DNA of 64,000 bases. It comes from Dictyoglomus thermophilum H-6-12. GTDB taxonomy: Bacteria > Dictyoglomota > Dictyoglomia > Dictyoglomales > Dictyoglomaceae. The DNA lies in NCBI RefSeq assembly GCF_000020965.1, contig NC_011297.1, positions 1-64,000 of the forward strand. Direction: 5' to 3'. The position numbers were made by a program, and so were the translations under genes. Positions 1,644-2,147 of the stretch are shown here, piece by piece; positions within the stretch are counted from its first letter, which is position 1; every line of letters starts with the position of its first letter. Below the pieces are notes generated by a model. It searched no databases, was not told the DNA's origin, and was given only the letters and a program-made list of their open reading frames with translations.

Positions 1644-2130
1644 TTATCCACAATTGTGGATAACTTTGTGCATAGGTTGTGGATAACTCTGTGGATAACT
1701 TTAGTAAATTGTGGATAACTTTGTGGATAAAATGTGAATTGTGGATAATGTGGAAAAGTTTGGAAAACTTATCCACAAACAAAAACCTTTAAAAAATTAA
1801 TCATTTTTCTTTTATCCACAATATCCACAGCCCTTACTACAACAACAAATTTTTGTTTTTTTATAATAACCGTCTTTGTACTAATTATAGTAAAGTGTGG
1901 ATAACTTTTTGGAAAAAGGGAGCCCCCTTAAAGGGACTCCCTTTGAGAAAGGAAATTCTGACTGGGGGTAGAGTTTATTCTTTATTTTAAAATTATATAT
2001 CTTGTTTATTAAATTTGCAATATTTTCAAAAAGAAATTTAATAATCTTAAACAAAATCGTGTTAATTAACCTTAAATGCTTTATTAAATTAATTTTTTGT
2101 TGTGTAAAAAATAATATTTTTTATGAGATT
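1644..2130. other. Candidate chromosomal replication origin (oriC): DnaA-box cluster with AT-rich flank
   Basis: Ten exact copies of the DnaA box TTATCCACA lie between 1644 and 1904. Forward copies start at 1644, 1769 and 1812; reverse copies (TGTGGATAA) start at 1655, 1678, 1690, 1710, 1722, 1740 and 1896. One-mismatch copies lie at 1821 and near 1667. Pairs at 1678/1690 and 1710/1722 are 12 bp apart, about one helical turn. To the right, 1970-2140 is very AT-rich and could be the unwinding element. No gene is seen in 1531-2147. dnaA itself is not in the window. Confidence 0.8.
1915..1944 (-). terminator. Inverted repeat at the right edge of the DnaA-box cluster
   Basis: AAAGGGAG (1915-1922) pairs with CTCCCTTT (1937-1944), and CCC with GGG inside the loop extends the structure. 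Read on the minus strand it is followed by a five-T run, so it would stop leftward transcription from entering the box cluster. Its role is inferred. Confidence 0.45.
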
Positions 2131-2131
2131 T

Positions 2132-2147
2132 TGATATAATTCAAATT
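2132..2147 (+). promoter_or_regulatory. Extended -10 promoter giving a leaderless mgtC-family transcript
   Basis: TGATATAAT (2132-2140) is an extended -10 element. The expected start of transcription, seven bases after the hexamer, is 2147, and the ATG is at 2148. No Shine-Dalgarno sequence precedes the ATG. Confidence 0.55.

Follow-up and report, generated by a model that had tools for sequence, protein, structure and literature searches.

The first 64 kb of the Dictyoglomus thermophilum H-6-12 chromosome (the window, 64,000 nt) carry at positions 1644–1904 what is almost certainly the single chromosomal origin of replication, oriC. The base-level evidence for this consists of a unique cluster of DnaA boxes, the position of the GC-skew switch, conservation that does not depend on the neighbouring genes, and the order of box, spacer, triplet and AT-rich elements. 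An earlier note on this DNA had read 1644–2140 as a candidate oriC, to be abandoned if a skew minimum and a comparable or denser box cluster lay elsewhere in the genome. That reading is supported: neither sign was found, and the module is kept in four other genomes.

The oriC core, defined by box search and a five-genome alignment, holds 10 exact DnaA boxes and about 5 weaker ones on both strands. Exact TTATCCACA boxes start at 1644(+), 1655(−), 1678(−), 1690(−), 1710(−), 1722(−), 1740(−), 1769(+), 1812(+) and 1896(−). The ten matches within about 260 bp that had been reported, seven of them in one orientation, were thus all recovered, with seven on the minus strand and three on the plus strand; shuffled windows contained 0.76 exact boxes on average and 4 at most. 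Weaker boxes, for which mismatches were allowed, are found at 1667, 1749, 1759, 1821 and 1908, and with these included most steps are 9–12 bp, or about one helical turn. The 12 bp spacing previously described for several exact boxes holds for the pairs 1678/1690 and 1710/1722, but no other adjacent exact pair is spaced at exactly 12 bp. A DnaA assembly array can be delimited at 1644–1777, in which the outer boxes (1644 and 1769) are on the plus strand and every box between them is on the minus strand: 1655, 1667 (weak), 1678, 1690, 1710, 1722, 1740, 1749 (one mismatch) and 1759 (weak). Two further elements are present in all five genomes, namely the plus-strand tandem boxes TTATCCACA-ATATCCACA at 1812–1829 (starting at 1812 and 1821), which abut the unwinding site, and a distal minus-strand box at 1896–1904, past the unwinding element, which has one mismatch in one genome.

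There are 52 exact TTATCCACA boxes in the whole chromosome. No second cluster of them exists, and nowhere else do even two lie within 500 bp. When one mismatch was allowed in 800 kb of sampled chromosome, the densest 300 bp was the oriC core with 12 boxes, and the runner-up had 4; neither search returned anything comparable or denser elsewhere. Both E. coli and B. subtilis have clusters of boxes at which replication does not start, a precedent that would allow the present cluster to be a DnaA titration or regulatory site (similar to datA or to the B. subtilis clusters) with the true origin elsewhere, for example at dnaA. Such a reading is scarcely credible given that the genome has no other cluster, that a skew switch and a box cluster are both missing at dnaA, and that conserved unwinding-type elements adjoin the boxes.

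GC skew, to which gene orientation also contributes, was calculated for 40 sampled stretches of 20 kb, or 41 % of the chromosome. Between base 1 and 1.05 Mb, 21 of the 22 stretches have positive skew, the exception being 245–265 kb; beyond 1.08 Mb, up to the chromosome end, each of the 18 stretches has negative skew. When skew was summed across the final 20 kb and on through the window, the lowest value fell at base 31. The skew comparison proposed earlier thus puts the switch and minimum at the record start, with no competitor found elsewhere in the sampled stretches. Isolated boxes also flip their strand preference between the two arms (15:5 versus 3:19, Fisher P 1e-4), a bias that is partly the skew itself.

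Several other features of base composition were apparent in the sampled stretches. The opposite skew switch, at about 1.05–1.08 Mb, marks the probable replication terminus. The stretch at 245–265 kb, the sole negative one of the right arm, has a skew of −0.10 and a GC content of 30.5 %, and may be an inversion or an acquired island. GC content at 1,764–1,784 kb is 29.6 %, against about 34 % elsewhere.

The statement that the cluster lies away from dnaA was confirmed: the gene is at 1.66 Mb of the 1,959,987 bp single-contig chromosome, about 0.3 Mb from oriC, inside the negative-skew arm and without a skew switch. In neither D. thermophilum nor D. turgidum does a box cluster accompany dnaA. The D. 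thermophilum gene is flanked by rluD-like, CRP-family-regulator-like and hflK/hflC-like genes rather than dnaN (names from reading the sequences), and its product is a single, complete DnaA with a standard DNA-binding domain. An oriC beside dnaA is the common arrangement, which is absent in D. thermophilum; separation of the two is nothing exceptional in bacteria at large. The 1,855,560 bp D. turgidum genome used for comparison has its record begin at dnaA (Dtur_0001, near base 381), yet that gene is inside the negative-skew arm, the skew turns positive near 275 kb (local minimum 275.3 kb), and the module follows purC at 276.9–277.2 kb. The start of the D. turgidum record is therefore about 277 kb off its origin. 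In the sister genus, dnaA and the box cluster are on separate contigs in three of three genomes, and oriC is detached from dnaA across the family.

A literature search for papers describing a Dictyoglomus oriC gave one sentence in a genome announcement, and DoriC probably holds a prediction. That announcement placed the origin by GC skew and by the co-localisation of dnaA, dnaN, recF and gyrA, and named no boxes or other elements (Coil et al., 2014; PMC3931368). The published D. thermophilum origin agrees with the present one in that record numbering begins at the skew switch, 1.6 kb from the cluster, and differs in its use of dnaA as a criterion, as dnaA is at 1.66 Mb in the record (PMC3931368). 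The record start thus agrees with skew and not with dnaA. Because the published numbering was set partly by GC skew, the location of oriC was essentially known already, and the origin is of modest novelty, a known kind with a standard mechanism.

Five genomes could be aligned across the origin: D. thermophilum, D. turgidum and three of the sister genus (G004, G005 and G006). Two same-genus drafts (G002 and G003) gave no origin; in one the contig breaks inside purC, and the other yielded no purC. Identity of the D. thermophilum core to the other four genomes is 69–86 %, whereas flank identity falls to 24–43 % in the sister genus. Invariant columns make up 87 % of the strong boxes, 27 % of the linkers and 11–19 % of the flanks across the five genomes. 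The conservation in related genomes that had been put forward as a check is therefore evident: D. turgidum and each of the three sister-genus genomes have the array with unchanged box order and spacing. Its surroundings in the sister genus are a short-chain dehydrogenase and an M1-peptidase-like gene in G005 and G006, and YdjC-like and DNA-methyltransferase-like genes in G004 (all names from reading the sequences), with purC on a contig other than that of oriC. The core is kept while the flanking genes differ entirely, which makes the origin a self-contained module. One strong box is shifted by 9 bp: Dictyoglomus has it at 1740 and the sister genus at 1749, the counterpart position being weak, as expected if the array is kept rather than an individual base.

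To the right of the array, a GC-rich spacer, GCCC (1830–1833), separates the tandem boxes from a DnaA-trio-like run of triplets, TTACTACAACAACAA, on the minus strand at 1834–1848. The top strand of this run reads TTA CTA CAA CAA CAA and the minus strand 3′-AAT GAT GTT GTT GTT-5′. It occurs once in 800 kb of sampled chromosome, and 13 of the 16 columns of 1833–1848 are invariant across the five genomes. A probable DNA unwinding element of 83 % AT follows at 1849–1895, and the 46 bp after the triplets are 80–91 % AT in all five genomes. This order of tandem box, GCCC, triplets and AT-rich DNA matches the layout of a ‘basal unwinding system’ (BUS), and unwinding is accordingly placed, most likely, at about 1833–1895, beside the tandem boxes.

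Published searches for the BUS called for at least three 3′-NAN-5′ triplets, with a box no more than 16 bp away (PMC8287927). In D. thermophilum a box lies less than 16 bp from the triplets with the correct polarity, and two triplets with a middle adenine (AAT GAT) precede three of GTT, against the published minimum of three (PMC8287927). There are three such triplets each in D. turgidum (GAT GAT GAT GTT GTT), G005 (GAT three times) and G004 (AAT GAT GAT). The likeness to the BUS-type oriC of B. subtilis, with its boxes 6/7, GC-rich gap and DnaA-trios, extends to the tandem boxes, the 4 bp GC-rich gap, triplets of the same strand polarity and AT-rich DNA beyond them, and to the interval between the better box and the triplets, the first of which is 13 bp away, inside the published peak of 10–13 bp (PMC8287927). 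Unlike the B. subtilis origin, that of D. thermophilum is not beside dnaA, and its triplets degrade to 3′-GTT-5′ after two. Thermotoga maritima, also a thermophile, has a box array flanking an unwinding element with triplet repeats, which the D. thermophilum triplets resemble; three TAG triplets are essential for opening, and the minimal origin is 149 bp with five boxes (PMC10316083). Its box, ACCTACCAC, is divergent, whereas D. thermophilum has ten exact copies of the E. coli consensus.

A scan of the GTDB collection with the triplet pattern returned only the contig of G005 and three Rhodothermaceae contigs, each match being inside a dense box cluster. As the pattern was drawn from the origins described here, the scan indicates where such modules occur and not how often. 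The Rhodothermaceae clusters (Longimonas halophila and two MAGs; L087–L089) have near-identical tandem boxes, a GTCC spacer and CTACTACTACAAC. They belong to a distant phylum and the remaining array differs, and, known here by sequence, they are candidate origins.

The AT-rich tract beside the boxes that the earlier note had considered part of the origin is present at 1970–2140, but it is outside the part conserved in the sister genus. It was rejected as the unwinding element for that lack of conservation. The origins of B. subtilis and H. pylori are bipartite, and these precedents, together with the fact that the least stable intergenic 50 bp begins at 1976, would favour either a second part of oriC at some other site, such as dnaA, or melting within the tract. 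Both are improbable, given that the dnaA vicinity is free of box clusters, that coding sequence occupies the place of the tract in G005 and G006, and that the AT-richness kept in all five genomes is that of the 46 bp past the triplets. Unwinding at 1833–1895 would fit a sequence of events extrapolated from studies of other bacteria. In this scheme DnaA would bind the array at 1644–1777 and the tandem boxes at 1812–1829, and the oligomer would grow rightward from the tandem boxes onto one strand of the triplets at 1834–1848. It would then melt the AT-rich DNA at 1849–1895, where two helicases may be loaded and from which two forks would depart.

The neighbours named previously, purC and an mgtC-type gene, are borne out by profile matches. 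purC lies to the left at 514–1530 (+; TIGR00081 above cut-off) and the MgtC-family gene to the right at 2148–2795 (+; PF02308, E 3e-40), directed away from oriC. Actual transcription toward oriC is that of purC, from the left. Downstream of purC, a hairpin at 1545–1567 (+; AAGGGGGCA / TGCCCCCTT, −16.8 kcal/mol) is followed by a weak T run and has a D. turgidum counterpart of −17.8 kcal/mol; it is likely to be the terminator of purC transcription heading to oriC.

At the right edge, the minus-strand terminator of the earlier note is present as a hairpin and T run at 1915–1944, but the shielding role given to it has no recognisable leftward gene to act on. A barrier against leftward transcription into oriC, which would be compatible with the oriC reading, is rather unlikely: the hairpin with its T run exists, but mgtC is transcribed away, the best promoter-like signal is only about 40 bp ahead of the hairpin (giving a unit of about 70 nt), the sister genus has no hairpin, and the D. 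turgidum version has no clear T run. Given the absence of a recognisable gene transcribed leftward into oriC, the terminator probably marks the end of a gene for a small RNA and is not a shield. This candidate gene (1913–1986, −; fold z −2.44) is directed toward oriC and is about 70 nt long, closing with a strong hairpin followed by the T run. Its promoter-like pair, TTGCAA-17-TATAAT at 2020–1992 on the minus strand (10/12), is the same in D. turgidum, and promoter-like matches in the stretch are no commoner than in shuffles. Rfam families gave no match at the gathering score in 1400–2300, and what was returned was taken as chance. The region is no better conserved overall than its flank (78 versus 76 %). 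Of its 26 middle nucleotides, 25 are complementary to 1,902,042–1,902,067, within the coding sequence of a gene for a solute-binding protein (E 1.3e-5), and D. turgidum keeps 24 of the 26. A Dictyoglomus-specific small RNA at the oriC edge (1986–1913, −) that pairs with the mRNA of this ABC-transporter protein and ties nutrient uptake to replication is a speculative and unlikely reading. If it were true, the dose of the origin-linked RNA gene would rise first at initiation, linking nutrient uptake and replication.

The analysis maps an origin to the base in a deep-branching phylum of thermophiles for which no described oriC was found. Five aligned origins with differing neighbours allow the positions essential to the origin to be separated from their context. 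The design of box, spacer and triplets is thereby extended to the Dictyoglomota, in agreement with the claim that this design is ancestral.
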